Of a stretch of DNA of 64,000 nucleotides, positions 22,301-61,592 are shown piece by piece. This DNA comes from Pseudomonadota bacterium (GTDB lineage Bacteria; Pseudomonadota; Gammaproteobacteria; Xanthomonadales; Ahniellaceae): NCBI GenBank assembly GCA_022843465.1, contig JALHNO010000004.1:248001-312000 (forward strand), given 5' to 3'. The notes under the pieces are model-generated. The model was given only the letters and a program-made list of their open reading frames with translations, searched no databases and was not told where the DNA came from. The translations under genes and the position numbers were made by a program. How positions within the stretch are numbered: the first letter of the stretch is position 1; each line of letters opens with the position of its first letter.

Positions 22301-22459
22301 CGACTCGGTGTAGACGTTGACCTGCACCGGCGTGACATCGGGAAAGGCATCGATCGGTACATCGCGCACCGCACGCGCACCGAGGAAGGCCACCACGCCG
22401 AACGCGATCAGCACCAGGAATTTGTAGCGCATTGACAGCTCGACCAGGCGGTTCAGCAT
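19349..22459 (-). CDS. czcA: HME-RND metal efflux pump, inner-membrane subunit (CzcA-like)
   Basis: A 1036-residue protein with the RND layout: an N-terminal helix, a large periplasmic loop, helices 2-7, a second loop and helices 8-12. The start MLNRLVELSMRYKFLVL and DVPIDAFPDVTPVQVNV are the heavy-metal-exporter signatures. The helix-4 motif reads AIGIGMMVDGAVVMVEN, a DGA-type motif of divalent-metal HME pumps but without the DFG of classical CzcA, so the precise substrate (Zn, Co, Cd or Ni) is uncertain. It uses the proton gradient to drive metal out through CzcB and CzcC, encoded immediately upstream. Confidence 0.9.
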   Translation of the reverse strand: MLNRLVELSMRYKFLVLIAFGVVAFLGARAVRDVPIDAFPDVTPVQVNVYTESPGLAAEDVEQLLTFPVESAMAGLPKVQEIRSVSLFGLSYVAVYFEDDMDIYFARQLVNERLQEVGDRLPEGYGKPSMGPNASGLGQVFWYTVERAPGVSAEQITAMDLRTWQDWTLRLILRTAPGVDDITSWGGGEREFQVHIDPQRLYARDLGFSDVIDAIAANNGQVGGNVLDVGREQYLVRGLGLLKTGEDIGGIVLKAEDGVPVYIRDVAEVRQAPAPRFGAVTRDGEEVVLGMALARIGENAKDVVEAVKTKLAAVENALPEGMVIKPIYERTDLVNKAVGTATRALIEGSLLVALVLFLFLGELRSALVVIVTLPLAMLIAFIGMGQFGLSANLMSLAGLAIGIGMMVDGAVVMVENAYRIMAERRAHGEKVDRTAAVLAAAHEVANPISFAIMIIIVVFLPLFSLEGLEGKLFKPMAFNIAFAMAGSLILSLTLIPVLAAMILKPGEEKDTRMMAFIKARYRPLLNAALAHKRIVVGSAAAALVLSLALFPLLGKEFMPQLQEGSIMWRVTGIPSTSLDESIRTSKTIAEAFKKFPEVETTLAMIGRAEKGETADVNYMEIYTALHPEEDWTTGRSLKDLEEAMEETLEQVVPNVVPGYTQPIQMRVEELISGVRATLALKLYGEDLIELDRLSAQIKTVLAGVPGVADLSLEANVGKPQIRIEVDRGELARHGMNAEEVLTIVRNGLGGEPVSVLLDGVKRFDIAVRLAEVTRDSVEALRRIPLRAASGALVPLGEVAEVNVAEGYSFVRREQLQRYAVIQMDVRGRDVDSFVQAASAAVKAEVDLPPGYWIEWGGAFENQQRALAKLSLIVPITIFFIFVLLYTAFNSIKFAALILANVPFATIGGLLALFVTGQYLSVPSAIGFIAVFGVAMLNGIVLVSFLNEQREKGLSVREAVLQGTALRLRPVLMTASVAVLGLVPMLLSSGVGAETQRPLATVVVGGLLSSTLLTLILLPVLYEWLETRAERKAQEAA

Positions 22460-35600: not shown

Positions 35601-35745
35601 CGATGACCTGCACGTCGGACAGATCCGGCAAGGCATCCAGCGGCGTGCGCAACACCGCATAGACGCCGGCTGCGGTCACCGCCAGCGACAACACGAGGAC
35701 CAGGAAGACGTTGCGGACCGACCACTCGATCAGGCGGGCAAGCAT
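32629..35745 (-). CDS. cusA: HME-RND Cu/Ag efflux pump, inner-membrane subunit (CusA-like)
   Basis: A 1038-residue protein from ATG 35745, with GAGGAG eight bases before; the frame extends upstream but over cusB. It opens MLARLIEWSVRNVFLVLVL, and the helix-4 region reads AIGAMVDAAIVMIENAHKHIE, the DAA form of the monovalent (Cu/Ag) HME class. EGTLLYMPASLPGMS and METSAR-type Met-rich periplasmic segments fit Cu(I) binding. It would export Cu(I) or Ag(I) across both membranes with CusB and CusC. The start is one base beyond the cusB stop. Confidence 0.92.
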   Translation of the reverse strand: MLARLIEWSVRNVFLVLVLSLAVTAAGVYAVLRTPLDALPDLSDVQVIVFTEVPGQGPQVVEDQVTYPLTTAMLAVPKSKVVRGFSFFGASFVYVIFEDGTDLYWARSRVLEYLNFASQKLPEGVTPTLGPDATGVGWVYQYALEGEQRSLDELRATQDWYVRYQLTKAPGVAEVASVGGFVRQYSVTVDPVRLRQYGIGLDRIMQVIAESNRDVGGRIVEMSETEYMVRGRGYLRGIADIEQLVLQAEGGTPVLISDVARVELVPDERRGIAELNGEGEVVGGIAVARYGENALAVIEGLKTKIAEIAGGLPEGVSLRAVYDRSDLIYRAIATLRWTLIEESLIVALVCVVFLFHARSALVAIIMLPIGVLIAFLAMRLLGMNSNIMSLGGIAIAIGAMVDAAIVMIENAHKHIERDDGSTPRSKLIVDACREVGPALFFSLLIITVSFLPVFALEAQEGRLFHPLAFTKTFAMAGGALLSVTLVPVLMLLFVRGKILPEAKNPVNRLLIALYRPVIAVVLRHKVATLLAALAVLLATAWPASRLGSEFMPTLNEGTLLYMPASLPGMSPTKAAELLQQQDRIIKSFPEVESVFGKAGRALTATDPAPLEMFETVINLKPEDQWRMGLTVDALIAEMDKALQFPGVANSWTMPIKARTDMLATGIRTPIGIKVFGTDLTEMERLAKQIEAVVREVPGTTSAYAERLTGGFYLDIQPDLRRLARYDLTVGAVQDVIAAALGGEMVTTTVEGRERFGVIVRYPRELRDSPEAIATQVLVPTMDGAQIPLGELADISVRKGAPSIRTENALLSAYIYVDTRDADLGAYVRRAQEAVAGEVTFPAGYYATWSGQYEYMQRAIAKMKIVVPLTLAIIFLLLYLNFRRVTESLIVMLSVPFALVGGVWLMWALDYNLSVAVAVGFIALAGVAAETGVVMLIYLDHALDERARRRRESGESLTVGDLTDAIIEGAVERVRPKMMTVVAIMAGLLPIMWSTGTGSEVMRRIAAPMVGGMVSSTILTLAVIPAIYALVKRRSLTRT

Positions 35746-35746
35746 G

Positions 35747-37198
35747 TCAGTGCTCTCCTCGGTGACCAGCGTGCGGATCGTCGGCAGGGGGCTCGTTGGA
35801 TTCAGTGGGAGTGCCGTGGCCATCGTGTGTCGAAGTCGATGCTGGAGGCGATTCGGTCGGCATCGTGTGACCGCTGTGGTCCTCAATCGGTGCGGAGTCA
35901 AGATTGCGACCGGTGGCCGGGATGGAGGGCTCGTCCACACCGTCTGCCGCGGTCGACAGGCCCTGCAGGGCCGACGTCAGGTTGCTCTCGGCATCGATAA
36001 GGAAGTTGGCCGACACCACCACCTCCTCGCCGACCGCGACGCCGTCCAGCACCGCGACTTGATCACCCGCACGTCGCCCGAGACGAACATCACGCGGTTC
36101 GAAGCGGCCCGGCGCAACCTGTACCAGCACGATCCGCCGTGTTCCGCTGTCGATCACAGCGGAGCGTGGCAAGACGATCGATTCCGCATCCGGGGTGCCG
36201 CCAAGCGTCACGTCACCGAACAGGCCGGGGCGCAGTGCACCGTCCTCGTTAGGCAGAACGATGCGCACGCCGATGGTGCGGCTGGCCATGTCGACGACCG
36301 GCTGGATGAAGTCGATAACGCCGTCGCGATACTCGCCGGGAAGGCTCGGCGTCTCGAAACGCGCGTCGTTGCCAGTCGCCAGATCAGCTGCCATCGATGT
36401 CGGCACCTGCGCCACGATCCAGACAGTGGACAGGTCCGCCAGCCGTAGCACCGTCTGCCCGGCTTCGAACCGGTCGCCCTCAACCACCATCTTGTCGATC
36501 ACCACCGCATCGGACGGCGCGGTGAGCACGAGGCGTGCGGGTGCGCCAGACATTGTAATCCGCCCTCCCGCCACCTCCCAGTTGCGTAGACGGGAATCGG
36601 CCGCGTCACGCAGCTGGCGCATGGCGTTGGCACTGGCCGGGTCGCTGGTGGCCAGGCGGCTGGCGGCCTCGTCGGCGATCCGGTATTCCTCCTGCGCGGC
36701 GAGCAAGTTCGGGCTGTAGAGGGTCATAAGCGGCTGACCGCGGCGCACCGGCATGCCGGTCTGGTTGGCGTGCAGCCGCTCGATCCAGCCCTCGAAGCGC
36801 GGCGCCACAACAAACTGCCTGGTTTCATCGACCTGCACGCTGGCGCTCACCCGCACTTCAGCGGACAGCCGATCAAGGGTAGCGATGTGTGTTCGCACGC
36901 CGAGCTTCTGGACCTTTTCCGGCGACAGCACGACGGTGCCGGACACCGATCGCGGTTCGCCGCCGGCATAGACCGGGATGTAGTCCATACCCATGCTGTC
37001 TTTCTTGGGCACTGGCGAGGTGTCCGGCAGACCCATCGGGTTGCGGTAATAGAGGATTTCAGGCTCGCCCTGCGGCGCAGCCGCAGCGTTCCCGGCTGCA
37101 TGTTCCGTTGGAGGCGCCGTCGACCGACCGAGCCACCAGCCCGCGCCAAGCGCCAGGAGCACGGACGCGCCCAATCCCATCCAGTTCGACATTTTCAT
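35747..37198 (-). CDS. cusB: Periplasmic adaptor of the Cus-type pump (CusB-like)
   Basis: A 483-residue adaptor with an N-terminal membrane anchor or signal (LGASVLLALGAGWWLG). ILYYRNPMGLPDTSPVPKKD followed by SMGMDYIPVY is the heavy-metal-binding motif of CusB-type adaptors. WIERLHANQTGMPVRRGQPLMTLYSP is the barrel-sandwich domain. The C-terminus ends in a His-rich stretch with DDPHAGHRGEH, which shares the DPHAGH motif of two other proteins in the window. Its start overlaps the cusC stop by four bases. Confidence 0.9.
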   Translation of the reverse strand: MKMSNWMGLGASVLLALGAGWWLGRSTAPPTEHAAGNAAAAPQGEPEILYYRNPMGLPDTSPVPKKDSMGMDYIPVYAGGEPRSVSGTVVLSPEKVQKLGVRTHIATLDRLSAEVRVSASVQVDETRQFVVAPRFEGWIERLHANQTGMPVRRGQPLMTLYSPNLLAAQEEYRIADEAASRLATSDPASANAMRQLRDAADSRLRNWEVAGGRITMSGAPARLVLTAPSDAVVIDKMVVEGDRFEAGQTVLRLADLSTVWIVAQVPTSMAADLATGNDARFETPSLPGEYRDGVIDFIQPVVDMASRTIGVRIVLPNEDGALRPGLFGDVTLGGTPDAESIVLPRSAVIDSGTRRIVLVQVAPGRFEPRDVRLGRRAGDQVAVLDGVAVGEEVVVSANFLIDAESNLTSALQGLSTAADGVDEPSIPATGRNLDSAPIEDHSGHTMPTESPPASTSTHDGHGTPTESNEPPADDPHAGHRGEH

Positions 37199-39045: not shown

Positions 39046-39059
39046 TTGATCAGGATCAA
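39046..39059. promoter_or_regulatory. FNR/Anr-type box TTGATCAGGATCAA
   Basis: A perfect match to the TTGAT-N4-ATCAA consensus. The centre is 42.5 bases upstream of the small Cys-rich gene start (39010), the usual class II activator distance if the message has a very short leader. It also lies 130 bases upstream of the ATP-grasp-like gene on the other strand. Confidence 0.65.
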
Positions 39060-39190: not shown

Positions 39191-40543
39191 ATGATTACTG
39201 CCGCCCAGAAAGCCATGCAGCGCGTGCTTGAACGTTGCGGCGTGCCGTGCGCGAGCCCGAGCTCGGCGAAGAACCTGAATCGTTGCTGCTTCTGTCTGGC
39301 CGTCGATCCAGCCGAGGTGCGCGCGAACCTCAATCGCCTGCTTGATGCACATGGCGGCGCTGGGCAACTAAACGAGTCACACGCCAACCTGTTCTCAGCG
39401 CTACCGGTGTTCGTGCCGGAGAGCATGATCAAGCGCATGGCCGAGGCGGTACGAGCGTTGACCGCCGTCGCGACAACCGAGCCCTATCAGCGCGTGGCGC
39501 TCGGCCGGGCCCCGGATATCGCCCGCTACGACCCCGGCTCGCCTGGAGGCGTGCTTGGCTTCGATTTCCATCTCACCGCGACCGGGCCGAAGCTGATCGA
39601 GATCAACACCAATCCCGGTGGACTGCTGCTCAACGCGATGTTGGCTCAGGCGCAGCAGCCGTGCGTGCCGGAACTCGGCGTTGCCTTCGATGGCGCGGCC
39701 GCGGAACGTCGCACCTCAGAGATACTGATCGAGGAATGGAGTGCGCAAATTGCGGTCGATGGCGACGCAATCGTCGCGATCGTCGATGAAGCGCCTGAAG
39801 AACAGTTCCTGCATGCCGAGTTCGTACTCTTCCAGCGCCTGCTGGAAGCGCAGGGCTATCGAGCGGTTATCTGCGATCCCGCGACGCTTCACTACGCCGA
39901 GGGCGCGTTGTGGTTCGGTACACAACGCGTGGGCTTCGTCTACAACCGATTAACGGATTTTTCGCTTGCCGGCGCCCAGTTGGCGCCCCTGCGTGAGGCC
40001 TATGTCGCGGGCGCTGTCGCCCTGAGTCCGCATCCGCGCGCGCACGCGATATGGGCTGACAAACGCAACCTGTGCCAGCTCAGCGACCGCGACTTCTTGG
40101 CCAACTCCGGATTGTCTCGGGTCGAGCAGGATGTACTGGCCGAAGCGGTGCCCCTGACCGTGACCGTAACGGCTGACAATCGGGATGCACTCTGGCGCGA
40201 GCGCCGTGGCTGGTTCTTCAAACCGGCGGCAGGATTCGGCAGTCGTGCCAGTTATCGCGGCGACAAGCTCACCCACAAGGCCTGGGCCGCGATTGCCGAG
40301 CAGGCCTTTGTCGCCCAGGCCCTCGTGCCGCCCAGCGAACGCCACACCGGGATGGACGGCCGCCCGCTCAAAGTGGATGTGCGCTGCTACGCGTATCGCG
40401 GCGAGGCGCTGCTGTTCGCCGCTCGTCTGTATCAGGGCCAGACCACCAACTTTCGCACCCCCGACGGCGGCTTCGCGCCGGTGCTGACCCTGCTCGCTCC
40501 GTACCAGCCCGCGTTGATGCCAGTCTCGGGGTGGGCTGACTGA
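39191..40543 (+). CDS. Circularly permuted ATP-grasp-like protein, unknown substrate
   Basis: A 450-residue protein. FDFHLTATGPKLIEINTNPGG (about residues 121-141) resembles the metal-binding strand of ATP-grasp enzymes (E-x-N). GWFFKPAAGFGSRASYRGDKL (about 340-360), followed by AFVAQALVPP and KVDVRCYAYRG, resembles the lysine and glycine-rich loop and hinge. The metal-binding element comes before the lysine loop, the reverse of the normal order, as in circularly permuted ATP-grasp families. These ligases usually join a carboxylate to an amine. The gene stands alone on the plus strand between two minus-strand operons. I do not recognise the substrate. Confidence 0.55.
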   Translation: MITAAQKAMQRVLERCGVPCASPSSAKNLNRCCFCLAVDPAEVRANLNRLLDAHGGAGQLNESHANLFSALPVFVPESMIKRMAEAVRALTAVATTEPYQRVALGRAPDIARYDPGSPGGVLGFDFHLTATGPKLIEINTNPGGLLLNAMLAQAQQPCVPELGVAFDGAAAERRTSEILIEEWSAQIAVDGDAIVAIVDEAPEEQFLHAEFVLFQRLLEAQGYRAVICDPATLHYAEGALWFGTQRVGFVYNRLTDFSLAGAQLAPLREAYVAGAVALSPHPRAHAIWADKRNLCQLSDRDFLANSGLSRVEQDVLAEAVPLTVTVTADNRDALWRERRGWFFKPAAGFGSRASYRGDKLTHKAWAAIAEQAFVAQALVPPSERHTGMDGRPLKVDVRCYAYRGEALLFAARLYQGQTTNFRTPDGGFAPVLTLLAPYQPALMPVSGWAD

Positions 40544-45573: not shown

Positions 45574-46626
45574 TCACCTGAGCGCGCGGGATAGCGCCCC
45601 GATATCGAGGGCGGTGTTGGTCCTTGCGATCGACGCCTCTTGCCCAGTCCCCGAATCCGTCAGCGCGCGGATCGCGTCGATGACTTCCGGAATCACGATG
45701 GCTTGGTTGTCGACCATGTAAGCGTAGAACAACTCATCACCACGGACCGTGAGCATGTCCTCCCACAGCGCGACCTCGTACAGGTCGTCGCGCGGACGCC
45801 CAAGGTCCGCCATGGCCTCCTTGATGCAGTTGATGGCGACCAAGCCCGCGTCCATGCGCACCAGCGCAATGCGCGGCGTGCTGCGGAACGCAGCGAGAAT
45901 CTCGTCGCGGCTCGCCGGCCGCGTCAGCTGCACCGACCAGTAATGCAGATGAGCCAGCGTCTCCGGCACCTTGACGGCCATCGTCACGACGTCGAGCTCA
46001 GGATCGACGGTCTGGGCGTCCGGGCCTTGGTGGCTCGGGATTTCACGCTCGGGAACCAGCGTGTTCATGATGCCCCCCGCGTGGCTTTCCCAGGGGTCGG
46101 TAGCGCGGCGCAGCAGCGTGCCGCGCGCCCGCCCGAGGAGTCCTGTGCGCTTGAGCGCCGAAAGCGTGCGAACGATCGAAGTCGTGTTGCAGGAGACTAC
46201 GCGCGTGGCATCGCGGCCGACGGCGCTGGCGTAGGAAACTTCGGCAACGAACGAATGACCGGTGACCGAATGCTTCTCACCCCCCTGGACGATGAACCGG
46301 GTCCCGCGCTCACGGTACCGTTCGGCGTTCTTGGCAGCGATCCCTTTCGGCGTGCAGTCCACAATCACATCTGCGTCCTGCAGCAGGTCGTCGAGCGCGC
46401 CGGCAATGTCGAATCCAGCCTCGCGCATTGCGGCCACACGCTCGTCGACGGCGGCGAAGAGCGGGTAGCCTTTCGCCTGCGCCGTACGCAGTCGCCAGCT
46501 GGTGTCGAGGTCGGCGATGCCCAGCAACTGCATGTCGGGCTGGCGTACAACGGCGTCTGCGACCCGCTTTCCAATCACCCCATAGCCATTGACTGCAACG
46601 CGGATTCTCCGTGATTCGGTGGTCAT
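45574..46626 (-). CDS. Type II (archaeal-type) glyceraldehyde-3-phosphate dehydrogenase
   Basis: A 350-residue protein from ATG 46626, with AGGAG upstream. RVAVNGYGVIGKRVADAV is the Rossmann loop. VVSCNTTSIVRTL (about residues 140-152) carries the catalytic Cys, in the SCNTT form of archaeal type II enzymes where bacterial type I has SCTTNC. Length, and the ending with IPEVIDAIRAL, also match the archaeal group, which uses NADP or NAD to oxidise glyceraldehyde-3-phosphate. It would use the GAP released by the phosphoketolase encoded in the same run. Start and stop abut the neighbouring membrane protein by five bases. Confidence 0.85.
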   Translation of the reverse strand: MTTESRRIRVAVNGYGVIGKRVADAVVRQPDMQLLGIADLDTSWRLRTAQAKGYPLFAAVDERVAAMREAGFDIAGALDDLLQDADVIVDCTPKGIAAKNAERYRERGTRFIVQGGEKHSVTGHSFVAEVSYASAVGRDATRVVSCNTTSIVRTLSALKRTGLLGRARGTLLRRATDPWESHAGGIMNTLVPEREIPSHQGPDAQTVDPELDVVTMAVKVPETLAHLHYWSVQLTRPASRDEILAAFRSTPRIALVRMDAGLVAINCIKEAMADLGRPRDDLYEVALWEDMLTVRGDELFYAYMVDNQAIVIPEVIDAIRALTDSGTGQEASIARTNTALDIGALSRALR

Positions 46627-46630
46627 GTCC

Positions 46631-47149
46631 TCAACTCCTGTCGTCGATTGGCGGCTGATGTCTCGGTGGCTCATTCGTGTCGCCCGCAACCGGCCGCATG
46701 TGCGACCAGAACCCACGCCGCGCCCACCAGAATCCGGCTATGGGCAGGATTAGCCACTGCAAGACCGGACTCAATCCCGTACCAAGAAGCGGCAGGCGCG
46801 GCATCGCGTCGCTGTAGGCCCAGCTTTGCCGTATCTCGATATTGAGCCACTCGCTGAATAGCGTGTAGGCCAGGCCAAAGGCCACAGCGAGTGCGGCGAC
46901 CCGCGCGTAGTGCTGCTGTGGCCATGCGCGGTTGCCAGCGAGAGCCGCAGCAAGCGCGAGGCTGCCGGCGGTGATCAGCCAATCACCCACGCTGCAGTGC
47001 AAGGCAGCAAAGCCGATCTCGGCGCGAGTACCGGTCTCCCACAGCGTGTAGAGCGGCATCTGGGCGAACTCCCAGGCGACGCTTGCCGGCACCATCAACA
47101 AGAAGTAACGGCCGACGACGCTGCGCGCGGTCCTTTTGAAAATCTTCAT
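46631..47149 (-). CDS. Conserved membrane protein (paralogue of 61068-61592)
   Basis: A 172-residue protein with about four to five hydrophobic helices. WEFAQMPLYTLW, LHCSVGDWLITAG, WAYSDAMPRLPLLGTGLSPVLQWL are shared almost word for word with the protein at 61068 (WEVAQLPLYTIW, HCTLGDAG, WAYSDLMPTRPLLGLGLSPVLQW). The conserved HC(S/T)xGD and the Tyr/Trp-rich loops suggest a defined function, possibly binding metal or haem, but I do not recognise a named family. It is coupled to the GAPDH gene. Confidence 0.65.
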   Translation of the reverse strand: MKIFKRTARSVVGRYFLLMVPASVAWEFAQMPLYTLWETGTRAEIGFAALHCSVGDWLITAGSLALAAALAGNRAWPQQHYARVAALAVAFGLAYTLFSEWLNIEIRQSWAYSDAMPRLPLLGTGLSPVLQWLILPIAGFWWARRGFWSHMRPVAGDTNEPPRHQPPIDDRS

Positions 47150-47315
47150 GCCAGATCCCTGCGGAATCGATGGCGTCGAAACGGGCCGGTCGGCCTGAGT
47201 GCGATAGAGCGCAGATGCTGGAGATCAGCGCGGCTCCGTGGTTTCTCCGTCCCTGGCATGCCGTGGCGGCCGAAGCGATCGACTTCCGGGCTCAACGTTG
47301 GCTGCGAACTCGCCA

Positions 47316-47975
47316 TTAGGGCAGCGTCGGACTATCCGTTCGCAGCGTGCGACGCGCACCGCGAAAATGCAGGTACACGATCACGCTCAAGATTGCAGCA
47401 AAGAAGCACCACATCGAAATCAAGGTCGCTGCGTGAATCGCGTATGCCAGGAAAAACGTCCCCAGCGAGGCGGCGCCAAACCACCGAATCATGTGGTGAC
47501 TGGACAACAAGCTGCTGGCGCAGGTTGCGATCAAATACCCGGACATCACCGGGGCGATGTAGAAATGCGGCGAGTCATACACGAGGTGCTGGCCGAGGAC
47601 GTGCACGACGATTGGAAAGCGAATCAGGTTGTAAAGCAGGTACCCGCCCACGGCGAGGCCAACCATCTGGGTACCCCAGATCGCACGTTGGCGCCACCCG
47701 TACGGCTCGAGCAAGCCGACGGCGAGCGGCACGAATATCGGCCACAACACGTGCGAGAACAGCGAGTATCCCATCGACCAGCCCCCCTCGATGGTCGTCC
47801 CACCAGCGCCCAGCACTAGCCAGATCACGCCTTCGAGCCCTTGCTGCAGGCCAAACAACAGCGGAATCGCGGCGAAAGGCCATTCGGAACGGTGCGAGGT
47901 CAAGCGCAACGCGGCGATGCCAACTCCCGTCAGCACGGTGGCGGCGATGAAGCTCGCAGGCGCGGAAAAGCACAT
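47316..47975 (-). CDS. DUF6629-like multi-pass membrane protein
   Basis: A 219-residue protein from ATG 47975 (MCFSAPASFIAATVLTGVG), with about seven helices and FGLQQGLEGVIWL at about residues 46-58. The opening MCFSAxASF and the QQ-x-x-EG motif match the DUF6629 family of uncharacterised membrane proteins. It sits 156 bases after the acetate kinase gene, the widest gap in the cassette. A degenerate FNR-like box lies in that gap. Confidence 0.65.
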   Translation of the reverse strand: MCFSAPASFIAATVLTGVGIAALRLTSHRSEWPFAAIPLLFGLQQGLEGVIWLVLGAGGTTIEGGWSMGYSLFSHVLWPIFVPLAVGLLEPYGWRQRAIWGTQMVGLAVGGYLLYNLIRFPIVVHVLGQHLVYDSPHFYIAPVMSGYLIATCASSLLSSHHMIRWFGAASLGTFFLAYAIHAATLISMWCFFAAILSVIVYLHFRGARRTLRTDSPTLP

Positions 47976-48131
47976 CGAACTATCTCCCGACGAATGACAT
48001 GAGTAGCGCTTGATTCGGTGCAAGTGCACGCATGCCACGACGCTGCGCAACCGCTTTTGGCGGGAGGCGGACGCCGCCCGTCCCAGTGTGCGCGTCGGGT
48101 GGCGATCGATCGGTGGGGCGGGCGCCGTCGC

Positions 48132-49337
48132 TCATGGCGAAGCCGCCGCATCGTCGTCCTGCCAGGCCAACGCTGCGTGGGCGAGTTCCCATTCCTCATC
48201 CACCGTCACCACCCACACCCGTACCCGCGAGCCTATCGCCTCGATTCGGGTCGCATTTTCCTCGTTTGCGCGAGCGTCAATGTTCACGCCCAGCCATGCC
48301 AACCGCTCGCCGATTTCGGCGCGCACAGGGGCAGCATGGGATCCCACCCCGCCGGAGAACACGAGGTCTTCGAGGCCACCCGCGCTCGTGGCCATGCTTG
48401 CGATACCCTGGGCCACACGGAGAGTAAACACGTCGATCGCCAGTTGGGCCGGTTTGGTTTCGTCAGCGAGCAGACGGCGCATGTCCCCGCTGATGCCAGA
48501 GAGTCCCAACAAGCCACTGCGCCCGCTCAGTTCGGCCTCGACGGCATCCACCTCGCCCCCCGCCTCACGAATGAGGTGCAGCACGACGCCGGGATCGAGG
48601 CTGCCGGAGCGGGTGGCCATGGGAACCCCGTCCAGCGGCGTGAGGCCCATTGTGGTGTCGACGCTGTGGCCGCCGCGTACTGCGCACAGGCTGGCACCAC
48701 CGCCCAAGTGCGCCAGCACAACCGGAGCGGAAGCCGTGCTAGGCGAGGACCTGCAAAGCTGGCGGTACGCGGACTGGAACGCGAGTCCGTGAAACCCATA
48801 ACGCTCCACGCCCGCCGCGCGCCAACGCCCCGGCAGCGCCAAAGTGCGGCTCTCGGCGGCCAAGGTACGGTGCCAGCTGGTGTCGAAGACGCCAAGGGCG
48901 CCGGCTCTCGGCCAGCGCGTCGAGGCCGCTGCGGCGAGGGCCAGGGCGGGCGCCTGATGCAGGGGCGCCCACGCGCTGAGCGCACCCAATGCGTGTCGCG
49001 CATCGACGTCCAGGCGTTGAGGCGCGTCGCGCGTCCCCCCGTGCACGATGCGATGAGCCACCAGAAAAGGGTTCGCACCCCGTGACGGTGCGGCCTCGGC
49101 GACCTGATCGAGCAAAGCGGACCATGTCTCGTCCGAAGCGATCGGTGGCGATCTGAATGAGTCATCTTCACGGAATGCAGGCAAAGGAACGGCGATACGT
49201 GACAAGAGCGCGAAGTCGTCCGACCTTGCCTCTGATTCTCCCATCGAGAACCATGCGGCCTTGAGCGTCGACGAGCCCAGGTTCAGCGCGACGCCGAGCC
49301 GAGGCAGACGATGCGCAATACGCAGTGCGCGGGGCAT
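48132..49337 (-). CDS. ackA: Acetate kinase (divergent)
   Basis: A 401-residue protein. ALNLGSSTLKAAWFS (nucleotide/acetyl-phosphate strand), RIVHGG, RYGFHGLAFQ, VLAHLGGGASLCAV, DTTMGLTPLDGVPMATRSGSLDPG and FSGGVGSHAAPVR follow the acetate-kinase order. Several residues differ from the standard enzyme (FDTSWHRT for FDTAFHQT; FSGGVGSH for FTGGIGEN), so activity is likely but should be tested. It converts acetyl-phosphate plus ADP to acetate plus ATP. The gene starts 13 bases after the phosphoketolase stop. Confidence 0.88.
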   Translation of the reverse strand: MPRALRIAHRLPRLGVALNLGSSTLKAAWFSMGESEARSDDFALLSRIAVPLPAFREDDSFRSPPIASDETWSALLDQVAEAAPSRGANPFLVAHRIVHGGTRDAPQRLDVDARHALGALSAWAPLHQAPALALAAAASTRWPRAGALGVFDTSWHRTLAAESRTLALPGRWRAAGVERYGFHGLAFQSAYRQLCRSSPSTASAPVVLAHLGGGASLCAVRGGHSVDTTMGLTPLDGVPMATRSGSLDPGVVLHLIREAGGEVDAVEAELSGRSGLLGLSGISGDMRRLLADETKPAQLAIDVFTLRVAQGIASMATSAGGLEDLVFSGGVGSHAAPVRAEIGERLAWLGVNIDARANEENATRIEAIGSRVRVWVVTVDEEWELAHAALAWQDDDAAASP

Positions 49338-49350
49338 TATGAAAAGCCAG

Positions 49351-51825
49351 TCACGACGCAGTTTCCGCGGTCCGCCACAATGCTGTCGGGTCGCCTTCCC
49401 CGCGCACCGCTGCGAACTCGTCTGGGGTCAGCCAGTCGGTCACGGGATGCTGCATAACATCGGCGGCTGCGGCGACCGCGTGCGCCCACGTACAGCGATT
49501 GGCGAACAACAGACCATTCACGTCGAGCGTGCCGCCGCGGTTGATAAAGCCCAGCGCCCGTGTGGTGCGCGGACCTGTATCGATCCGGCGCAGTGCGCCC
49601 AGGTAGGCGTCCGGCCGCGTGTGGGTCAGGAACACGCGTGGCGTCGCGGACGGGAAATGGCGCAGAAGTTCGGTATCGGACAGCACATAGGCTGCCTCCC
49701 GTTCATCGCGTCCGCTGCGTAACCGACCCGGCTCACCCACGTAGACCACGCCCACGGCGATGCCGGCCGCACGCAATCGGGCTTCGGCGCGCAGCACTTC
49801 GCCCAGTTGGTAGGCGCCGGTCGCCGCCAGGATCACCGCCGCGGACTGCGCTTCGCCGTGCAGCCACACCAGCCCATCGGCAACCAGCGCACGGGCCTGG
49901 GTCGGCGTCAGCCGGTTAGGCACCTCGCGCTTGGGCACGATCAGCGCGGTGATCGTGCCAAGGCCCTGAACGCTGTGCGACAACGCTGCCATGGCGCTGT
50001 TGGCATCGGCCGGGAAGCACACCCGGGCGACATCCGCCATTTCACCCAACCAGGCCTCGGCGAGGGTTGGATCCTGATGTGACTGCTCGTTCTTGGCGTT
50101 CTCCCAGGTGTGCGAGGTCAGCACCACTGGTACCCCCAACCAGCCTGGCGGCCGGTCTGCTTCGGCAAGATGGCGGCTGAAAATGATTTCCTGGCGCATC
50201 GCACCGAGCATCTTGGGCGCGAAGGCTTCGTAGGTGACCACCAGGTTCAGGCCACCCTTGTTGGCCAGCGCGGCGCAGACCACGGCCTCCTCATTGAGCG
50301 CGGTAATGACCCCGCCGACGCGCGACTCGGACACACCTACCTCCGGGCTGTGCACCCGGTGTTGGAGCAGGTCGAGCGTGGCATCGAGTTTGTTGCTGCG
50401 CAGTTCGTCTGGATTGCCCACGCGCGGCCGCAAGGTGGGATTGGCCTGGACCAAGCGCACGAAGTGGCCGTCGATCGCTGCCATCGGCGAGCTGATCGTG
50501 CCGGGCACCAGCCACGCAGGCTCGGGCAGGACAGGCGGGGGCACTTGGCGGGTGGCCAGCGCGTGGTCGCGCTCTCGCGGCCGGCCCTGCGCGTCGTGCG
50601 TCGTCAGTTCGGTGACCGCGGCCAGCAGCTCCTGCAGCGGCACGTGCAGCGGCGCGCAGCCAGCATTGAACTGGTTCCGCGCCTCCGCGTCGCGCGCAGG
50701 GTTGCCGGCCAGGGGAAGGTTGTGCGCGGCGTTGGTACCTGCGCCGGGGAAGCCGAATCCCTTGATGGTTTCGGCGATGCCGTAGCGTAGTGGAATCCGA
50801 TGGTCGCCATCGGGATTGTCCGCTGCGGCCTCGGTGCAGGCGCGCAGGCGCGACTCGATGATGTGAATGCCCCAGGCCAGACTGGCGGGATCGCGGCCAT
50901 CCAGAGAAATCGGCTCGAACCCGTTCAATCGCAGGTGACGGTGGAGCCAATCCTCGCCTCCCTGCTGGGCAATCTGGCTGCGCTGCTCGATGCGCCGTCC
51001 GTTGAGCACCATGATGGGTGCGACCAGGCCCGAATCGTCGGGCCGCCACCAGCGTGGCGCCCAGTCACCGCCGCGTTGCTCCTCGAACGCGCCATCGCTG
51101 AGAAAGGCGACCAGCCGCTCGCCAGGCAGCGGCGCGTGCACGTACTGCAGTTCGGCAAAGCCCAGGTAGCCGCCTTCCAGCATGCCACCGGCGGTGTGGG
51201 CATTGACATGCGAGCCCAGTGGCGAGGCCGGCCGGCCCTCGGAAGTCAGCGCGTAGGAGTAGAAGTCGCCGGCGAAGCGCGACAGACGTTCATCATCCAA
51301 GCCATACCGCGCGGCGTGCGCGGGAGTCATGTTGTCGACGATCAGGTTGAGCGCATCGATCGCCGCCACGCAATGACCCTGGCCCATCATCCACGCGCGG
51401 GTGACGCCATCAAGTGCATTCATCGCAAGGTAGCCGGCGTAGGCCGGCACCATGTTGAGTGCGCCGCCGGTATGACCCTCCGGCTGCAGCTTGAAGTCCT
51501 CGGCATCCAGTGCCCGCCCGTCCAGTCTTACGCGCCGCGCATAGGTCATGTGTGCCACCAGCCACATGCCGGCACTGGCAACGCGGTCGGCCGCCTGCAG
51601 TCGGCGGTAACCGGTTGCTGTGTCCGGCAACGCGCCGGTTGCGACCAGTTCATCGAGCATGGCCCGCACGCGAAGCTGGGTCAGCGGCGTGTGCACGATC
51701 ACACCGTAGCCCGCGGCCCAACGCGCGAATGCCGTGTCGGTCTGCGCGTAAAGCGTCGCCAGCTGCTCAACGCGGTGATTGTCGATCGCGCTCAAGGCGC
51801 CGGCAGAACAGGTCAGGTCGTTCAT
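49351..51825 (-). CDS. xfp: Phosphoketolase family enzyme (divergent)
   Basis: An 824-residue ThDP enzyme. PEGHTGGALNMVPAYAGYL and GQGHCVAAIDALNLI are the substrate/ThDP regions, and SDGAFEEQRGGDWAPRWW sits where standard phosphoketolases have GDGExE, so the first acidic residue is replaced by Ala. The middle and C-terminal transketolase-like domains (VVTYEAFAPKMLGAMRQE; SQDPTLAEAWLGE) are recognisable. The expected reaction is xylulose-5-phosphate (or fructose-6-phosphate) plus phosphate to acetyl-phosphate plus GAP (or erythrose-4-phosphate). Acetate kinase directly downstream supports this. The motif change and distinct N-terminus place it in a divergent branch. Confidence 0.85.
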   Translation of the reverse strand: MNDLTCSAGALSAIDNHRVEQLATLYAQTDTAFARWAAGYGVIVHTPLTQLRVRAMLDELVATGALPDTATGYRRLQAADRVASAGMWLVAHMTYARRVRLDGRALDAEDFKLQPEGHTGGALNMVPAYAGYLAMNALDGVTRAWMMGQGHCVAAIDALNLIVDNMTPAHAARYGLDDERLSRFAGDFYSYALTSEGRPASPLGSHVNAHTAGGMLEGGYLGFAELQYVHAPLPGERLVAFLSDGAFEEQRGGDWAPRWWRPDDSGLVAPIMVLNGRRIEQRSQIAQQGGEDWLHRHLRLNGFEPISLDGRDPASLAWGIHIIESRLRACTEAAADNPDGDHRIPLRYGIAETIKGFGFPGAGTNAAHNLPLAGNPARDAEARNQFNAGCAPLHVPLQELLAAVTELTTHDAQGRPRERDHALATRQVPPPVLPEPAWLVPGTISSPMAAIDGHFVRLVQANPTLRPRVGNPDELRSNKLDATLDLLQHRVHSPEVGVSESRVGGVITALNEEAVVCAALANKGGLNLVVTYEAFAPKMLGAMRQEIIFSRHLAEADRPPGWLGVPVVLTSHTWENAKNEQSHQDPTLAEAWLGEMADVARVCFPADANSAMAALSHSVQGLGTITALIVPKREVPNRLTPTQARALVADGLVWLHGEAQSAAVILAATGAYQLGEVLRAEARLRAAGIAVGVVYVGEPGRLRSGRDEREAAYVLSDTELLRHFPSATPRVFLTHTRPDAYLGALRRIDTGPRTTRALGFINRGGTLDVNGLLFANRCTWAHAVAAAADVMQHPVTDWLTPDEFAAVRGEGDPTALWRTAETAS

Positions 51826-51839
51826 CGGGACTCACAGTC

Positions 51840-52790
51840 TCAGGACGGATCAGGTCGGTTCGGGAAGGACGCCGGGCTCGGCGGAGCGTCGTGCTGAGCA
51901 CGCTCGGTCAGCAACGCGTCGCAGGCGGCGGCCAAAAACGGCGCGACCGAGATGGCGTTGGTCGGGTGCGGGATCGTGTTCGTGCTGACTACGCGCTGCG
52001 CGCCTGCGGCGAGCAAATTGCCGTGGGCGTCGTCGGAGAACACTGCGTGCGTCACCAGGCAGGTCGCCGGTGCCAGCCCGAGTCCTGACAGGTGCTTCAA
52101 GGTTTCGAGCATGGTGTGGCCCGAGGACACGATGTCGTCGACCACCACCGGGGTGCGGCCGCGGGCCACGACAGCGTCGGGCAGGCTGACGCTGACGGAG
52201 CGGTCGCCTTGCCGCGTTTTGGCCAGAACCTGGTGCGGCACGTCGGCACGGGCCGCGATGTCGGCGACCCACTGCGCGCTCTCGCTGTCGGGGCCGATGA
52301 GGATTGCATCGGGCACGTGGTCCCGCACCCAGGCAGCTATCGCCGGCGCGGCGGCCACGTTGCGTGCGGGGATGGAAAACAGCCGATCCAGGCTGGGGTT
52401 GCGATGCAGGTGGGGGTCGACCGTCACCAGCCAGTCCACGCTCTGTTCCAGGAATCGGGCGAACAATGGGGCACTGATCGCCTCGCCGGGGTGAAAGCGC
52501 GCGTCCTGCCGCATGTAGGCCAAGTAGGGAGCGATCAGGCCGACCGAACGGGCACCGAACTCGCGAGCAGTCTCCGCGGCAAAGCGCAACGCCAGCGCCG
52601 TGCTGTCGGGACGGCGCAGCCCGGCCAGCAGCAGCACATCGGCGTCGGCCAGATCGGCGTCAAGCGTGACCAGCGATTCGCCATCCGGGAAACGGCGCCA
52701 CCCCAGCGCGCCCAGCCGTGCGCCCACCCTCGGCGCCAGCTCCGCCCCGAGGGCCTGCAGCTCCGGGAATGCAAGCAGTACGCGGCTCAT
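51840..52790 (-). CDS. Ribose-phosphate pyrophosphokinase-like protein (archaeal-like branch)
   Basis: A 316-residue protein. RRFPDGESLVTLD, IAPYLAYMRQDARFHPGEAIS, VDPHLHRN and VVVDDIVSSGHTMLE (PRPP loop) are in the Prs order. The YLAYMRQD-GEAIS form is nearer to archaeal class III enzymes than to typical bacterial Prs, which suggests it is not the housekeeping copy. It interconverts ribose-5-phosphate + ATP with PRPP + AMP; in this operon it may run towards ribose-5-phosphate, or act on ribose-1,5-bisphosphate. Its start overlaps the DUF5676 stop by four bases, and the phosphoketolase follows after 14. Confidence 0.85.
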   Translation of the reverse strand: MSRVLLAFPELQALGAELAPRVGARLGALGWRRFPDGESLVTLDADLADADVLLLAGLRRPDSTALALRFAAETAREFGARSVGLIAPYLAYMRQDARFHPGEAISAPLFARFLEQSVDWLVTVDPHLHRNPSLDRLFSIPARNVAAAPAIAAWVRDHVPDAILIGPDSESAQWVADIAARADVPHQVLAKTRQGDRSVSVSLPDAVVARGRTPVVVDDIVSSGHTMLETLKHLSGLGLAPATCLVTHAVFSDDAHGNLLAAGAQRVVSTNTIPHPTNAISVAPFLAAACDALLTERAQHDAPPSPASFPNRPDPS

Positions 52791-53056
52791 GGGTTGCGCG
52801 TGCCGCCCAAGCGGCGGGAAAGCAGGTTATGGATCCAGGCGAACCCTCCGCCCAGATAAAGCCCCCAGAGAAGGCTTTCCGCCAGTCCAAGGAAGAACGC
52901 GGCGGGACTGATCCATTCGAAGCCCGGGAGCACGGCCTCCAGCAGTGCTCGCATGTGGAAGCGCTCGGGTGTCACAAGGCCGAACGCGACACACAGCACG
53001 AAGCTCAGCGCCAGAAACAGCGCGGCGGAGGAAGCGATCAACTTGATCTTCAGCAT
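52787..53056 (-). CDS. DUF5676-like small membrane protein
   Basis: An 89-residue protein from ATG 53056 with two hydrophobic helices (IASSAALFLALSFVLCVAFGLV; FFLGLAESLLWGLYLGGGF). Such DUF5676 proteins are common in heavy-metal and accessory islands. It sits between the NMP phosphorylase and PRPP-synthetase genes, with four-base overlap to the latter. The role is unknown. Confidence 0.75.
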   Translation of the reverse strand: MLKIKLIASSAALFLALSFVLCVAFGLVTPERFHMRALLEAVLPGFEWISPAAFFLGLAESLLWGLYLGGGFAWIHNLLSRRLGGTRNP

Positions 53057-53140
53057 GGTGGTGCTCTCCTTTGGATGCCAACCAGCGAGGGGATGTGCGC
53101 AACGATTTCGACCTGGCAAGCGGTTTGGCCGGTGGTCCTA

Positions 53141-54655
53141 CTACGCTTCTGTAATGGTGATGATGCTCGGGTGTGCGGCGACGTATTCCAGTGCATAGCG
53201 CAACTCGCCGACGGTTTGCGCGTGTACTTGAAACAGCGGAGCACCGACCGGGATCGGATCGCCGATCCGCAACGTAATTGCAAGTCCGGCGACGGCGCTC
53301 ATCGGGGCACCGGCCAGTTTTGCGACCTTTGCCAGACGCCGGTTGTCGATGGCGCGTACCCAGCCGGATCGAGGTGCCGGGACGTCGGCGCGGTGCTCGG
53401 CCGCGCCGGGTTCAGTGAAGCCGCCCTGCGCCTCGCAGATCGCGTAGAACTTCGCCAGCGCACGCCCAGAGGCCAAGGCCTGCCTTGCCAGATCAAGGCC
53501 GGTTCCGCGGTGCGCTCCGGGTGCCAGGTCCAGCAAGGCGCCCGCCACAGCCAGCGCCCGGTCACGCAAGTCCGCAGGTGCCCCGGCCTCCCCACGCAGC
53601 ACGGCGAGAACGTCGTGGGCCTCGAGCGCCGGACCGATGCCAATGCCCACCGGCTGTCGTCCGTCGGAGCGGAGCACGGACAATTGCAAGCCCAGCGCCG
53701 TACCCGTGGCCAACAGGCGGTCCGTCAGGGTGGACGCAGCGGCGTCGGAGCGGACCTTGGCGGTTGCTCCTACCGGCATATCGATCAGAACGTGGCTGGC
53801 GCCGGCCGCGACTTTCTTGGACAGAACACTGGCCACCAACTGGCCGTCACTGTCGAAGTCCAGTGGTCGTTCGACCCGGATCAGCACGTCGTCCGCCGGG
53901 CTCAATCGCACATTGCCGCCCCAGACCACGCAACCGCCTTCGCGCTCGACCACGCGCCGCATAGCGGCCAGATCGAGCGCCACCGGGGTCATTACCTCCA
54001 TCGTGTCGGCGGTGCCGGCCGGTGAGGTGATAGCGCGTGACGATGTCTTGGGAATGCGATGCCCCAAGGCGGCAATGATCGCGACCACGATGGGCGTTGT
54101 CCGATTGCCCGGCAGGCCGCCCACACAATGCTTGTCCAGCACCGGGCCGTCGCCCCAGTCCAAGGTCTCCCCGACCGCCACCATGGCGCGCGTCAGCGAC
54201 AGCGTTTCATGCACATCCAAACGATCGCCGGCGCAGGCGGTGACGAACGCCGCCAGTTCAATATCCGACAGCTGGTTCGCCACCGTATCGCGCATCAGGG
54301 CCAGGCAGGCGTCGTCATCCAGGCGTGCGCCGAATACTTTGGCGCGCAAGGCCCCGGCCGACGCCGGCGGATCGGCATGGCGAAACGTGGCACAGGCATG
54401 CTCATCCGGCGACGCCGCGCGCCAGGCGGCCTCGGATAGCGCGACTTCGTCGATCGCCAGATGATCCCCGGTGACCACGTTCAGGGTCGCGGTCACCTGC
54501 CGATCACCCACCGTCATCCGCACGCGAGTGAGCGCTTTGAAGCCCTCCGCCCGGCACACCGCACAGTCGCGATGCATGTACACCACAGGCTGCTGGTAGG
54601 TATCGATGCCGGCGCGAATCACACGCAGCCGGGTATGCGGATGCTCGGCGGCCAT
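53141..54655 (-). CDS. NMP (AMP) phosphorylase of the archaeal DeoA-like type
   Basis: A 504-residue protein from ATG 54655, which overlaps the RNase stop (TGATG). KHCVGGLPGNRTTP (about residue 190) and KTSSRAITSPAGTADTMEV are the phosphate- and sugar-binding motifs of the thymidine/AMP phosphorylase family. The length of about 500 residues and the extra N-terminal domain match archaeal AMP phosphorylase rather than bacterial DeoA (about 440). That enzyme splits AMP, CMP or UMP with phosphate into base and ribose-1,5-bisphosphate. Directly after an RNase gene, this suggests nucleotide salvage or degradation. Thymidine phosphorylase activity is the less likely alternative. Confidence 0.82.
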   Translation of the reverse strand: MAAEHPHTRLRVIRAGIDTYQQPVVYMHRDCAVCRAEGFKALTRVRMTVGDRQVTATLNVVTGDHLAIDEVALSEAAWRAASPDEHACATFRHADPPASAGALRAKVFGARLDDDACLALMRDTVANQLSDIELAAFVTACAGDRLDVHETLSLTRAMVAVGETLDWGDGPVLDKHCVGGLPGNRTTPIVVAIIAALGHRIPKTSSRAITSPAGTADTMEVMTPVALDLAAMRRVVEREGGCVVWGGNVRLSPADDVLIRVERPLDFDSDGQLVASVLSKKVAAGASHVLIDMPVGATAKVRSDAAASTLTDRLLATGTALGLQLSVLRSDGRQPVGIGIGPALEAHDVLAVLRGEAGAPADLRDRALAVAGALLDLAPGAHRGTGLDLARQALASGRALAKFYAICEAQGGFTEPGAAEHRADVPAPRSGWVRAIDNRRLAKVAKLAGAPMSAVAGLAITLRIGDPIPVGAPLFQVHAQTVGELRYALEYVAAHPSIITITEA

Positions 54656-56043
54656 CAGGCGTTGGCCTGCGGGTTGAGGGACACTCGCTCCAAGTGCTCG
54701 GGCACCCGGCACGCCCAGCCGAGCTCGCGCGCGATCCGACCGCGCAGCGTGTCGGCCGCATCGGGTTCGCCATGCGTGATGTAGGTGATCTCCGGCGGCG
54801 GCGCCGCGCCCAGCCAGGCCAGCAACTCCTCGCTGTCGGCGTGCCCAGAGAAGCTTTCCATCGCCACCACTTCGGCATTGATCGGAACGCTCTGGCCAAA
54901 GATGCGCAGGGTTCGATCACCCCGGATCAAGGCCGCGCCGCGCGTGCCTCCTGCCTGGTAGCCCGCCAGCAGGATCGCGTTGCGCGAATCCTGGCCGAAG
55001 GCCTGTAGATGATGCAGAACCCGCCCGCCAGACAACATGCCGCTGGCCGAGATGATGATCATGGGGCCACGCTGCCGGTTGAGGGCCTTGGACTCTTCGG
55101 CGCTGCGCACCATCGTTGCCAACTCATACATGGCGTGGCACTCGGCGTCAGTGACATGGTGCTCGTCGTGGTGCCGGTGGTAGAGGTCGGTGGCATTGAT
55201 CGCCATCGGGCTGTTGAGATAGACCGGCACGCGAGGGATCTCACCACGCTGACGCAGCCGTGCGATATGCAGCATCAGACCCTGCGCCCGACCAACAGCG
55301 AATGCTGGAATGACAATGACACCTCCGCGAGCGGCCACGCGCTTGATCACGGGCGCCAGCTCGGCCTCGGCGTCGGCGACGGGATGACGACGATTTCCGT
55401 AGGTGGACTCGCAGACCAGCAGGTCGGCGCCCTCGAACGGAGCCGGCGCGCGCATCAGGGAATCCGTGGCCCGGCCGAGATCGCCGGTGAAATGAAGGCG
55501 CTGTCCGTCGATGTTCAGCGCGATCTGGGCAGCGCCCAGGATATGGCCGGCGGGAAGGAAGCGCGCGCTGATGCCCGGTGCCAGCACCTGCGTCTCGCCG
55601 AATGGCCGGCCCTCGAAGCGCTTCAGGCAAGCCATCGCATCGGCTTCCGTGTACAGCGGTAGCGGCTCCGCGTGCTTGGAGTAGCCCTTCCTCTTTGCGT
55701 AGCGTGCATCTTCCTCCAGCAGGTGGCCGCTGTCGGGAAGCAGCAATTGGCTGAGCTCGTAAGTCGCCTGCGTGCAGAGGATTCGGCCGTTGAAGCCCTG
55801 CTTGACCAGGGCGGGCAAGTAACCGGCATGGTCGAGGTGCGCGTGGGTGAGCAGCACGGTGTCGATCGAAGCGGGCGCGACCGGAAACGCAGCCCAGTTT
55901 CGTTCCCGAAGCTGCTTGTAGCCCTGAAACAGGCCGCAATCCACCAAAATGCGCTGCCCGGCAACTTCGATCAGGTAACGGGAGCCGGTTACGGTTCCGG
56001 CTGCACCGAGGAAACGGAGCGAGCGCATCGATGAGGTTGTCAT
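54655..56043 (-). CDS. Beta-CASP metallo-beta-lactamase-fold RNase
   Basis: A 462-residue protein from ATG 56043, with AAGGAG seven bases upstream. LTHAHLDHAGYLPAL (HxHxDH zinc motif), LPAGHILGAAQI, FTGDLGR and SGHADSEELLAWL, then YITHGEPDA, trace the active site. CESTYGNRRHP and the SASGMLSGGR block are the beta-CASP region. Relatives such as the RNase J/CPSF73-like and YsgB-type proteins cut or trim RNA. It heads the metabolic run and overlaps the NMP phosphorylase gene, suggesting it supplies nucleotides. Confidence 0.88.
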   Translation of the reverse strand: MTTSSMRSLRFLGAAGTVTGSRYLIEVAGQRILVDCGLFQGYKQLRERNWAAFPVAPASIDTVLLTHAHLDHAGYLPALVKQGFNGRILCTQATYELSQLLLPDSGHLLEEDARYAKRKGYSKHAEPLPLYTEADAMACLKRFEGRPFGETQVLAPGISARFLPAGHILGAAQIALNIDGQRLHFTGDLGRATDSLMRAPAPFEGADLLVCESTYGNRRHPVADAEAELAPVIKRVAARGGVIVIPAFAVGRAQGLMLHIARLRQRGEIPRVPVYLNSPMAINATDLYHRHHDEHHVTDAECHAMYELATMVRSAEESKALNRQRGPMIIISASGMLSGGRVLHHLQAFGQDSRNAILLAGYQAGGTRGAALIRGDRTLRIFGQSVPINAEVVAMESFSGHADSEELLAWLGAAPPPEITYITHGEPDAADTLRGRIARELGWACRVPEHLERVSLNPQANA

Positions 56044-61057: not shown

Positions 61058-61071
61058 TTGATTCAGATCAA
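61058..61071. promoter_or_regulatory. FNR/Anr-type box TTGATTCAGATCAA
   Basis: A perfect TTGAT-N4-ATCAA site, extended by ATT/AAT symmetry. The centre is 41.5 bases upstream of the Cys-rich gene start (61023), the class II activator distance. It overlaps the 3' end of the membrane-protein gene. Confidence 0.7.
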
Positions 61072-61592
61072 TCGGCCGACGAACTTCTCGGATCATGGTC
61101 GCAATCCGCAGCGGTGCGCAGCGCCTCCAATGTGTGGCCCATTCTTCGACGCAGGATCAGCAGTGCGAGGGTAGGAACGAAAATCCACTGCAGCACGGGG
61201 CTCAGCCCCAGGCCAAGCAGAGGACGCGTCGGCATCAGATCGCTATAGGCCCAGCGTGCGAGCCATTCGGTGCTTGCCCATTCGAATGCCGCCGTCACCA
61301 TCAGCCCAGCAGCCACGATCAGGACCGAGAGCGGCAGAACGCGTCGCAGAGGGCTCACCACCGAGGCCAAGGCCAGACTCGCGAAACTTGCTGCGAGCGC
61401 GATGCCCGCGTCACCCAGCGTGCAGTGCGCGGCCGCCCGCAGACTGCCCGCGACGCCTTGTTCATTCCAGATTGTGTAGAGCGGCAACTGTGCCACTTCC
61501 CAGATGGCAAACATGGGCAGTGTCACCGCCACGTACCACAGCACGAATGTCAGGCGGATGTGGATCCGTCGGAGCCATGCTGGTCGTTCCAT
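61068..61592 (-). CDS. Conserved membrane protein (paralogue of 46631-47149)
   Basis: A 174-residue protein with about four to five helices. WEVAQLPLYTIW, HCTLGDAGIALA, WAYSDLMPTRPLLGLGLSPVLQW are shared with the protein at 46631. The N-terminus differs. The pairing of two such genes within 15 kb of metal genes suggests a family function tied to metals or to the low-oxygen cassette. Confidence 0.65.
   Translation of the reverse strand: MERPAWLRRIHIRLTFVLWYVAVTLPMFAIWEVAQLPLYTIWNEQGVAGSLRAAAHCTLGDAGIALAASFASLALASVVSPLRRVLPLSVLIVAAGLMVTAAFEWASTEWLARWAYSDLMPTRPLLGLGLSPVLQWIFVPTLALLILRRRMGHTLEALRTAADCDHDPRSSSAD

Follow-up and report, generated by a model that had tools for sequence, protein, structure and literature searches.

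Archaea recover the ribose of nucleotides through a nucleoside monophosphate (NMP) shunt, or pentose bisphosphate pathway, which in T. kodakarensis comprises AMP phosphorylase, ribose-1,5-bisphosphate (R15P) isomerase, and form III RuBisCO. The archaeal phosphorylase splits all natural NMPs using inorganic phosphate (Pi) and acts in NMP breakdown (PMC8376864), and the R15P formed is removed by the isomerase and RuBisCO (PMC9700705). In bacteria, archaeal-type NMP phosphorylases are recorded as thymidine phosphorylase. We analyzed a 64,000-nucleotide window from a Pseudomonadota bacterium (assembly GCA_022843465.1, contig JALHNO010000004.1, positions 248,001 to 312,000), in which a homologue of the archaeal enzyme, here called NMPP, stands with PRS, a protein resembling phosphoribosyl pyrophosphate (PRPP) synthetase, among nine minus-strand genes at window positions 45574 to 56043. 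Like the archaeal shunt, this locus would use the ribose of nucleotides, through a homologous phosphorylase predicted to convert NMP and Pi to base and R15P. A sequence-only reading of the window had grouped all nine genes into a single cassette for turning RNA and nucleotides into ATP. We find that the conserved core is the NMPP-PRS pair and that the set of nine has been built up locally around these two genes. The pair offers a testable answer to the fate of the NMP phosphorylase product in bacteria without an R15P isomerase.

To assess co-occurrence, 249 genomes of the window's phylum were searched with curated family cut-offs. PRS (NF005537) and NMPP (TIGR02645) each exceeded the cut-off in 30 of the 249 genomes, and the two lists of genomes were identical. 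Scores were split in both families: the lowest passing and highest failing scores were 322.8 and 167.6 bits for PRS and 523.1 (a fragment at a contig end) and 218.7 bits for NMPP. The pair-bearing genomes span 14 families, and in 9 of these families other sampled genomes lack both genes, so that NMPP and PRS appear and disappear jointly. These genomes hold 31 NMPP loci (two in one genome); NMPP and PRS lie in the same cluster at 30 of them, and the remaining case involves two contigs of a fragmented genome. Among 14 control genomes, none passed for PRS and 3 passed for TIGR02645. At an E value of 1e-60, NMPP was found in 13 of 61 genomes (the window's own and 60 relatives), and its presence is thus patchy.

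Neighbors were counted at the nearest 80 of at least 587 NMPP pattern matches in named genomes, a sample that leans towards close relatives. PRS was present at 73 of these 80 loci at an E value of 1e-8 and at 71 at 1e-25. Judged by their titles, the 80 records represent Proteobacteria, Bacteroidota, one Gemmatimonadota metagenome-assembled genome (MAG), and one Verrucomicrobia MAG; the nearest named NMPP homologues belong to Lysobacterales. On plasmids, NMPP matches occurred in 165 of 72,556 records at an E value of 1e-5, distant phosphorylases included, and 105 of the matches cover at least 80% of its length. A Prs-type gene followed NMPP in all six plasmid records examined (five annotated as such, the sixth detected by tblastn). 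Pairwise distances of NMPP and PRS were correlated across 70 loci (r = 0.77, with none of 2,000 permutations as high and with species relatedness uncontrolled). The grouping of NMPP and PRS is not due to chance.

NMPP scored 541 bits against TIGR02645 (cut-off, 434.6). It is 41% identical (165 of 400 aligned residues) to a segment of T. kodakarensis AMP phosphorylase and 34% identical (131 of 381) to the thymidine-phosphorylase-type protein of its own genome. The alignment revealed the AMP-phosphorylase motifs PGNRT and PKTSSRAITSPAGTAD in NMPP, which match those of the T. kodakarensis enzyme (PGN[RK]T and PKTSSRAITS.AGTAD), not those of thymidine phosphorylase. Homology and these common motifs support phosphorolysis of NMP to R15P as the predicted activity of NMPP, in agreement with the sequence-only reading. 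At one plasmid locus (Sinorhizobium pSinB, L006, 9638 to 11224), the annotated thymidine phosphorylase consists of about 125 residues of the beta-CASP RNase fused to NMPP from about residue 109, a fusion that apparently reflects an internal deletion.

If NMPP forms R15P, a consumer of this compound is needed. R15P isomerase (TIGR00511) exceeded its cut-off in none of the 30 pair-bearing genomes; 17 weaker matches (139 to 180 bits) are presumably methylthioribose-1-phosphate isomerases. PhnN passed in 4 of the 30, the window's own genome not among them, and both enzymes were ruled out as the general next step. RuBisCO is present in 16 of the 30 genomes and absent from the window's own. PRS is the sole cassette gene found together with NMPP in every NMPP genome of the 249-genome sample. 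Because the isomerase passed in no pair-bearing genome and PhnN in so few, the missing step at R15P is best assigned, as a candidate, to PRS, as had been proposed from the window alone, and its candidacy is backed by the exact co-occurrence with NMPP and by an invariant change in its active-site loop.

PRS scored 386 bits against NF005537/PRK07199 (cut-off, 322), a family filed as ribose-phosphate diphosphokinase. Its residues 166 to 174 read GPDSESAQW, and a loop of the form GPDxESxQW is present in 87 of 87 extracted PRS homologues, where it replaces the glycine loop PD.G[GA] of PRPP synthetases; the aligned loop is SPDVGG in the housekeeping Prs of the same genome and APDKGA in M. jannaschii. 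The catalytic Lys/Arg pattern K.R.GD is retained in 85 of the 87 homologues, with Lys191 and Arg193 of PRS invariant across 68 aligned sequences, and PRS also keeps the loop Asp, the His of the second Mg site, the nucleotide-binding residues, and most of the ribose 5-phosphate (R5P) loop. Structure was predicted from 68 of 88 sequences (the 87 homologues and that of the window). The AlphaFold model (predicted local distance difference test score [pLDDT], 94.8) matched PRPP synthetases in Foldseek and VIA-align searches, the best VIA-align match being the archaeal structure 3lpn (Z score of 32.9 over 286 residues, root mean square deviation of 2.0 Å). By fold alone, archaeal and human PRPP synthetases tie as matches; by sequence, four archaeal PRPP synthetases rank first among the proteins of solved structure, and the archaeal affinity previously noted in the cassette extends to PRS.

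The extra phosphate of PRPP is normally contacted by the main chain of the glycine loop, as is known from the PRPP synthetase and phosphoribosyltransferase literature. An acidic residue at this position points to a substrate that bears a single phosphate at C1, namely R15P. We take the Asp of the altered loop to be equivalent to D170 of the E. coli PRPP synthetase. In that enzyme, D170 holds Mg on the C1 to C3 hydroxyls of R5P, and ADP has been seen in the ATP site beside R5P (PMC9232217). PRPP synthetases transfer the beta phosphate with AMP leaving, and we infer that the same geometry with ADP would give R5P + ADP <-> R15P + AMP.

These features suggest a route in which NMPP would convert NMP and Pi to base and R15P and PRS would move the anomeric phosphate of R15P onto an adenine nucleotide, releasing R5P. 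R15P + AMP -> R5P + ADP would preserve the geometry of PRPP synthetase; the alternative would be R15P + ADP -> R5P + ATP. Ordinary Rpi and Rpe would convert R5P to xylulose 5-phosphate (Xu5P), which, where the partners are present, would pass to phosphoketolase and then acetate kinase, with ATP formed from acetyl phosphate; glyceraldehyde 3-phosphate (GAP) would be taken on by type II GAP dehydrogenase (GAPDH), NMP would come from RNA cut by the beta-CASP RNase, and the whole set would act at low oxygen or in starvation. The two reactions are predictions from sequence, and we infer them together with the direction of flow and the RNA source of NMP. We regard as evenly balanced the proposition that the two core enzymes form a path that leads away from nucleotides and conserves energy. 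We put forward more tentatively, as possible but somewhat short of even, the specific claim that R15P:AMP (or ADP) phosphotransferases are represented for the first time by the PRS family, which would have arisen from a PRPP synthetase when its loop changed so as to shut out the second phosphate, and that PRS and NMPP together make up a bacterial pentose bisphosphate route needing neither RuBisCO nor isomerase (NMP + AMP + Pi -> base + R5P + ADP). Under this proposal, proteins that currently carry the PRPP synthetase annotation would catalyze a new reaction. If the proposal is correct, cells would carry out substrate-level phosphorylation at the expense of their own RNA, and this ATP- or ADP-yielding means of anoxic survival would be present in several bacterial phyla (its carriers including Lysobacterales, rhizobia, roseobacters, and flavobacteria) and would often be mobile, on plasmids and metal islands.

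The pair is not always accompanied by the RNase, phosphoketolase, acetate kinase, or type II GAPDH, each of which is an optional partner. The RNase adjoins it at 13 of the 31 loci, the phosphoketolase does so in the three NMPP genomes that carry it, and type II GAPDH (TIGR01546, 330 bits; cut-off, 232.9) occurs in 2 of the 249 genomes, both with the pair. At the 80 nearest NMPP loci, the RNase was found 57 times, a P-type ATPase 45 times, phosphoketolase 26 times (two of these only 25 to 26% identical), DUF6629 13 times, acetate kinase and DUF5676 10 times each, and type II GAPDH 9 times. Of the nine genes, NMPP and PRS alone are conserved as a group, and the counts of RNase, phosphoketolase, and type II GAPDH in the 249 genomes, with the neighbors at the 80 loci, rule out the nine genes as one unit. 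The earlier interpretation, right in outline and partly supported, is to be recast around the pair.

The family names originally given to the partners hold, with qualifications. The RNase is a plausible source of NMP; among NCBIfam models it scores highest, at 368 bits (under the cut-off of 800), against that for the type VII CRISPR Cas14 metallo-beta-lactamase (MBL)-CASP protein. The acetate kinase passes its Pfam model but falls below the cut-off of TIGR00016 (243.7 versus 293.4 bits). The phosphoketolase reached 132 bits against the best NCBIfam phosphoketolase model, under the cut-off of 777, and 175 of 773 aligned residues are identical to those of a canonical phosphoketolase beside NMPP at another locus (L055). 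In the alignment it keeps the His residues of the motifs GH.G, GSH, H[QN].P, and SHQDP, which we take to be H64, H142, H320, and H553. Its structural model has a mean pLDDT of 80.6, with values below 50 at residues 191 to 229 and in some other stretches, and Foldseek returned phosphoketolases in rows 1 to 20 and transketolases after them; one plasmid homologue is annotated as xylulose 5-phosphate 3-epimerase. By its sequence and model, the protein is a divergent phosphoketolase-type enzyme with a putative substrate. Locus L055 (12534 to 16792) is free of PRS, and NMPP there adjoins both the canonical phosphoketolase and a protein of a carbohydrate phosphorylase family. In four genomes (G083, G117, G121, and G203), a divergent phosphoketolase adjoins a beta-CASP RNase without NMPP, and because of this adjacency the phosphoketolase-RNase couple may have a role of its own.

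Regulation was examined in the window and in related organisms. The window contains two perfect FNR-type boxes (at 39046 and 61058), compared with none in 100 shuffles of the window and 11 genome-wide. The box at 39046 to 39059 lies about 130 bases upstream of an open reading frame (ORF) without a Pfam match (39191 to 40543). In 97 related loci, several of them near-identical and hence nonindependent, 13 strict and 50 relaxed FNR-like boxes were found, versus 0.6 and 2.0 in mononucleotide shuffles. In Bradyrhizobium diazoefficiens at 0.5% O2, protein (log2) and transcript levels rose by 2.9 and 15.4-fold for bll3115 (MBL), 4.4 and 7.7-fold for bll3116 (Prs), 2.1 and 5.1-fold for bll3117 (thymidine phosphorylase family), and 4.3 and 8.2-fold for the phosphoketolase gene bll2518 (PMC6515984). 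Deletion of fixK2 gave expression changes of -6.6 for bll3117 and -30.6 for bll3115, whose predicted operon includes bll3116, and of -10.0 for bll2518 and -10.2 for bll2517 (acetate kinase), both groups being associated with FixK2 boxes (PMC9104804). Since phosphoketolase and acetate kinase stand apart from the pair in this organism and share its regulator, their link to it appears to be metabolic and independent of neighborhood. The low-oxygen role suggested earlier for the cassette is supported, by analogy, by this FixK2-dependent induction of like-annotated operons.

Several observations weigh against the proposed energy-saving route. Phosphorolysis of N-glycosides usually favors the nucleotide side and hence salvage. 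NMPP scored 432 bits against the AMP-phosphorylase equivalog TIGR03327, below the cut-off of 535. PRS was absent from 7 of the 80 NMPP loci within the stretch examined, the rest of those genomes not having been searched and one 25% PRS match among the seven being left uncounted. Six neighbors scanned at five of these loci (all but L056 and L068) yielded no candidate for a substitute enzyme beside NMPP; they were two MacB/FtsX permeases, a thiolase, an isocitrate-dehydrogenase-family protein, a molybdopterin oxidoreductase, and a protein without a family. Relatives of the RNase (E value of 1e-60) occur in 45 of the 249 genomes, comprising 18 of the 30 NMPP genomes and 27 that lack NMPP, and the phosphoketolase clade occurs in 9, of which 3 are among the 30 with NMPP and 6 among the 219 others. 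An FNR-like box lies within 400 bases upstream of the operon at only 6 of the 97 loci, and FNR control as a general rule for the operon was ruled out. The Bradyrhizobium genes were matched to the cassette by annotation and gene order only, and Table 2 of PMC6515984 neither marks bll3115 to bll3117 as targets of FixK2 nor shows a rise for them in soybean bacteroids.

Flow could run in the opposite direction, with PRS making R15P from R5P and ATP (or ADP) and NMPP joining R15P to free bases in a PRPP-free salvage. The co-occurrence and motif data fit either direction, and phosphorolysis equilibria usually favor the glycoside. However, the neighbors, where present, are catabolic (RNase, phosphoketolase, and acetate kinase), and the archaeal phosphorylase homologue is described in NMP breakdown (PMC8376864); we consider reverse flow unlikely. 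Its altered loop notwithstanding, PRS might instead be a second PRPP synthetase of the ordinary kind, with NMPP working apart from it or making PRPP from pyrophosphate (PPi) in a TrpD-like manner and PRS reversing to yield ATP and R5P. The family label, the fold, and the catalytic Lys and Arg would fit such an enzyme, as would the retention of universally conserved catalytic residues across the major PRPP synthetase classes (PMC13252144), but an invariant Glu-Ser replaces Gly-Gly/Ala, the genome already has a housekeeping Prs, and the characterized archaeal phosphorylase uses Pi (PMC8376864), all of which make us doubt this explanation. We regard it as very improbable that PRS has reduced catalytic capacity and acts on NMPP as a regulatory partner, comparable to PRPP-synthetase-associated proteins, with a general phosphatase removing R15P: the exact pairing would fit, and PRPP synthetase pseudoenzymes are described in eukaryotes (PMC13252144), but PRS keeps its Lys/Arg, Mg ligands, and nucleotide-binding residues.

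All nine ORFs of the locus were recovered with families as originally named (ORF list and Pfam and NCBIfam scans), as were the overlapping starts and stops: one base is common to the RNase stop and the NMPP ATG, and there is a 4-base overlap between the genes for DUF5676 and PRS. The host genome (5.18 Mb) also encodes a separate PRPP synthetase and a separate thymidine-phosphorylase-type protein.

Features of the NMPP-PRS locus, in window coordinates
Feature	Position	Strand	Basis or remark
Beta-CASP/RMMBL ribonuclease, optional upstream partner	54655..56043	-	Pfam Beta-Casp, RMMBL, Lactamase_B
NMP phosphorylase-type protein NMPP, core gene	53141..54655	-	TIGR02645
DUF5676 protein with two transmembrane segments, between core genes	52787..about 53056	-	PF18926; start picked by eye
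PRPP-synthetase-like protein PRS, core gene	51840..52790	-	NF005537/PRK07199
Divergent phosphoketolase-type thiamine pyrophosphate enzyme (putative)	49351..51825	-	XFP (Pfam)
Acetate/propionate-kinase family protein	48132..49337	-	PF00871
DUF6629 protein	47316..47975	-	PF20334
Protein without family match	46631..47149	-	No Pfam or NCBIfam match; putative membrane protein in the sequence-only reading
Type II (archaeal-type) GAPDH	45574..46626	-	TIGR01546
Perfect FNR-type box TTGATTCAGATCAA	61058..61071		Precedes minus-strand gene run

Elsewhere in the window are a Tn3-family transposase (12100 to 15105), a chromate transporter (3251 to 4852), and two RND-type efflux proteins (19349 to 22459 and 32629 to 35940), and judging from these genes the window carries a mobile metal island. 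Compared by eye, the proteins encoded at 61068 to 61592 and 46631 to 47149 look alike and bracket the island.

The open-licence literature yielded no description of an NMPP-PRS pair and none of a PRPP-synthetase-like protein that uses R15P, most subscription papers being outside reach; related open literature consists of archaeal pathway papers, papers on candidate phyla with RuBisCO, and the Bradyrhizobium tables. The noncarboxylating pentose bisphosphate pathway of halophilic archaea resembles the proposed route in handling R15P without RuBisCO. That pathway starts at guanosine and employs ribose 1-phosphate kinase, R15P isomerase, ribulose bisphosphate phosphatase, ribulose 1-phosphate aldolase, and glycolaldehyde reductase (PMC9700705), whereas the nine cassette genes carry none of these annotations. 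E. coli PhnN, which phosphorylates R15P to PRPP, also consumes R15P but belongs to a different family. For the lxa low-oxygen locus of B. cenocepacia, considered as a possible counterpart, the available account mentions an MBL protein and no phosphorylase or phosphoketolase. The bll3117-bll3116-bll3115 and bll2518-bll2517 genes of B. diazoefficiens share annotated products with the cassette and are coregulated at low oxygen but form two separate units, to which the available text and tables assign no function.

Compared with the archaeal NMP shunt, the position after R15P would be taken in the cassette by PRS, with no isomerase above its cut-off in the 30 genomes and no RuBisCO in the window's own. 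PRS shares its fold, nucleotide site, R5P loop, and catalytic Lys/Arg with PRPP synthetases, both the archaeal class III and the bacterial classes II and IV to XI, which a June 2026 preprint defines by sequence with strict preservation of the PRPP reaction (PMC13252144). PRS may be one of these classes; the words phosphorylase and bisphosphate are absent from the main text of the preprint. PRS differs from PRPP synthetases in its GPDxESxQW loop and, within our sample, in always occurring with NMPP, a pairing that suggests an undescribed means of drawing energy from spent RNA under oxygen limitation.

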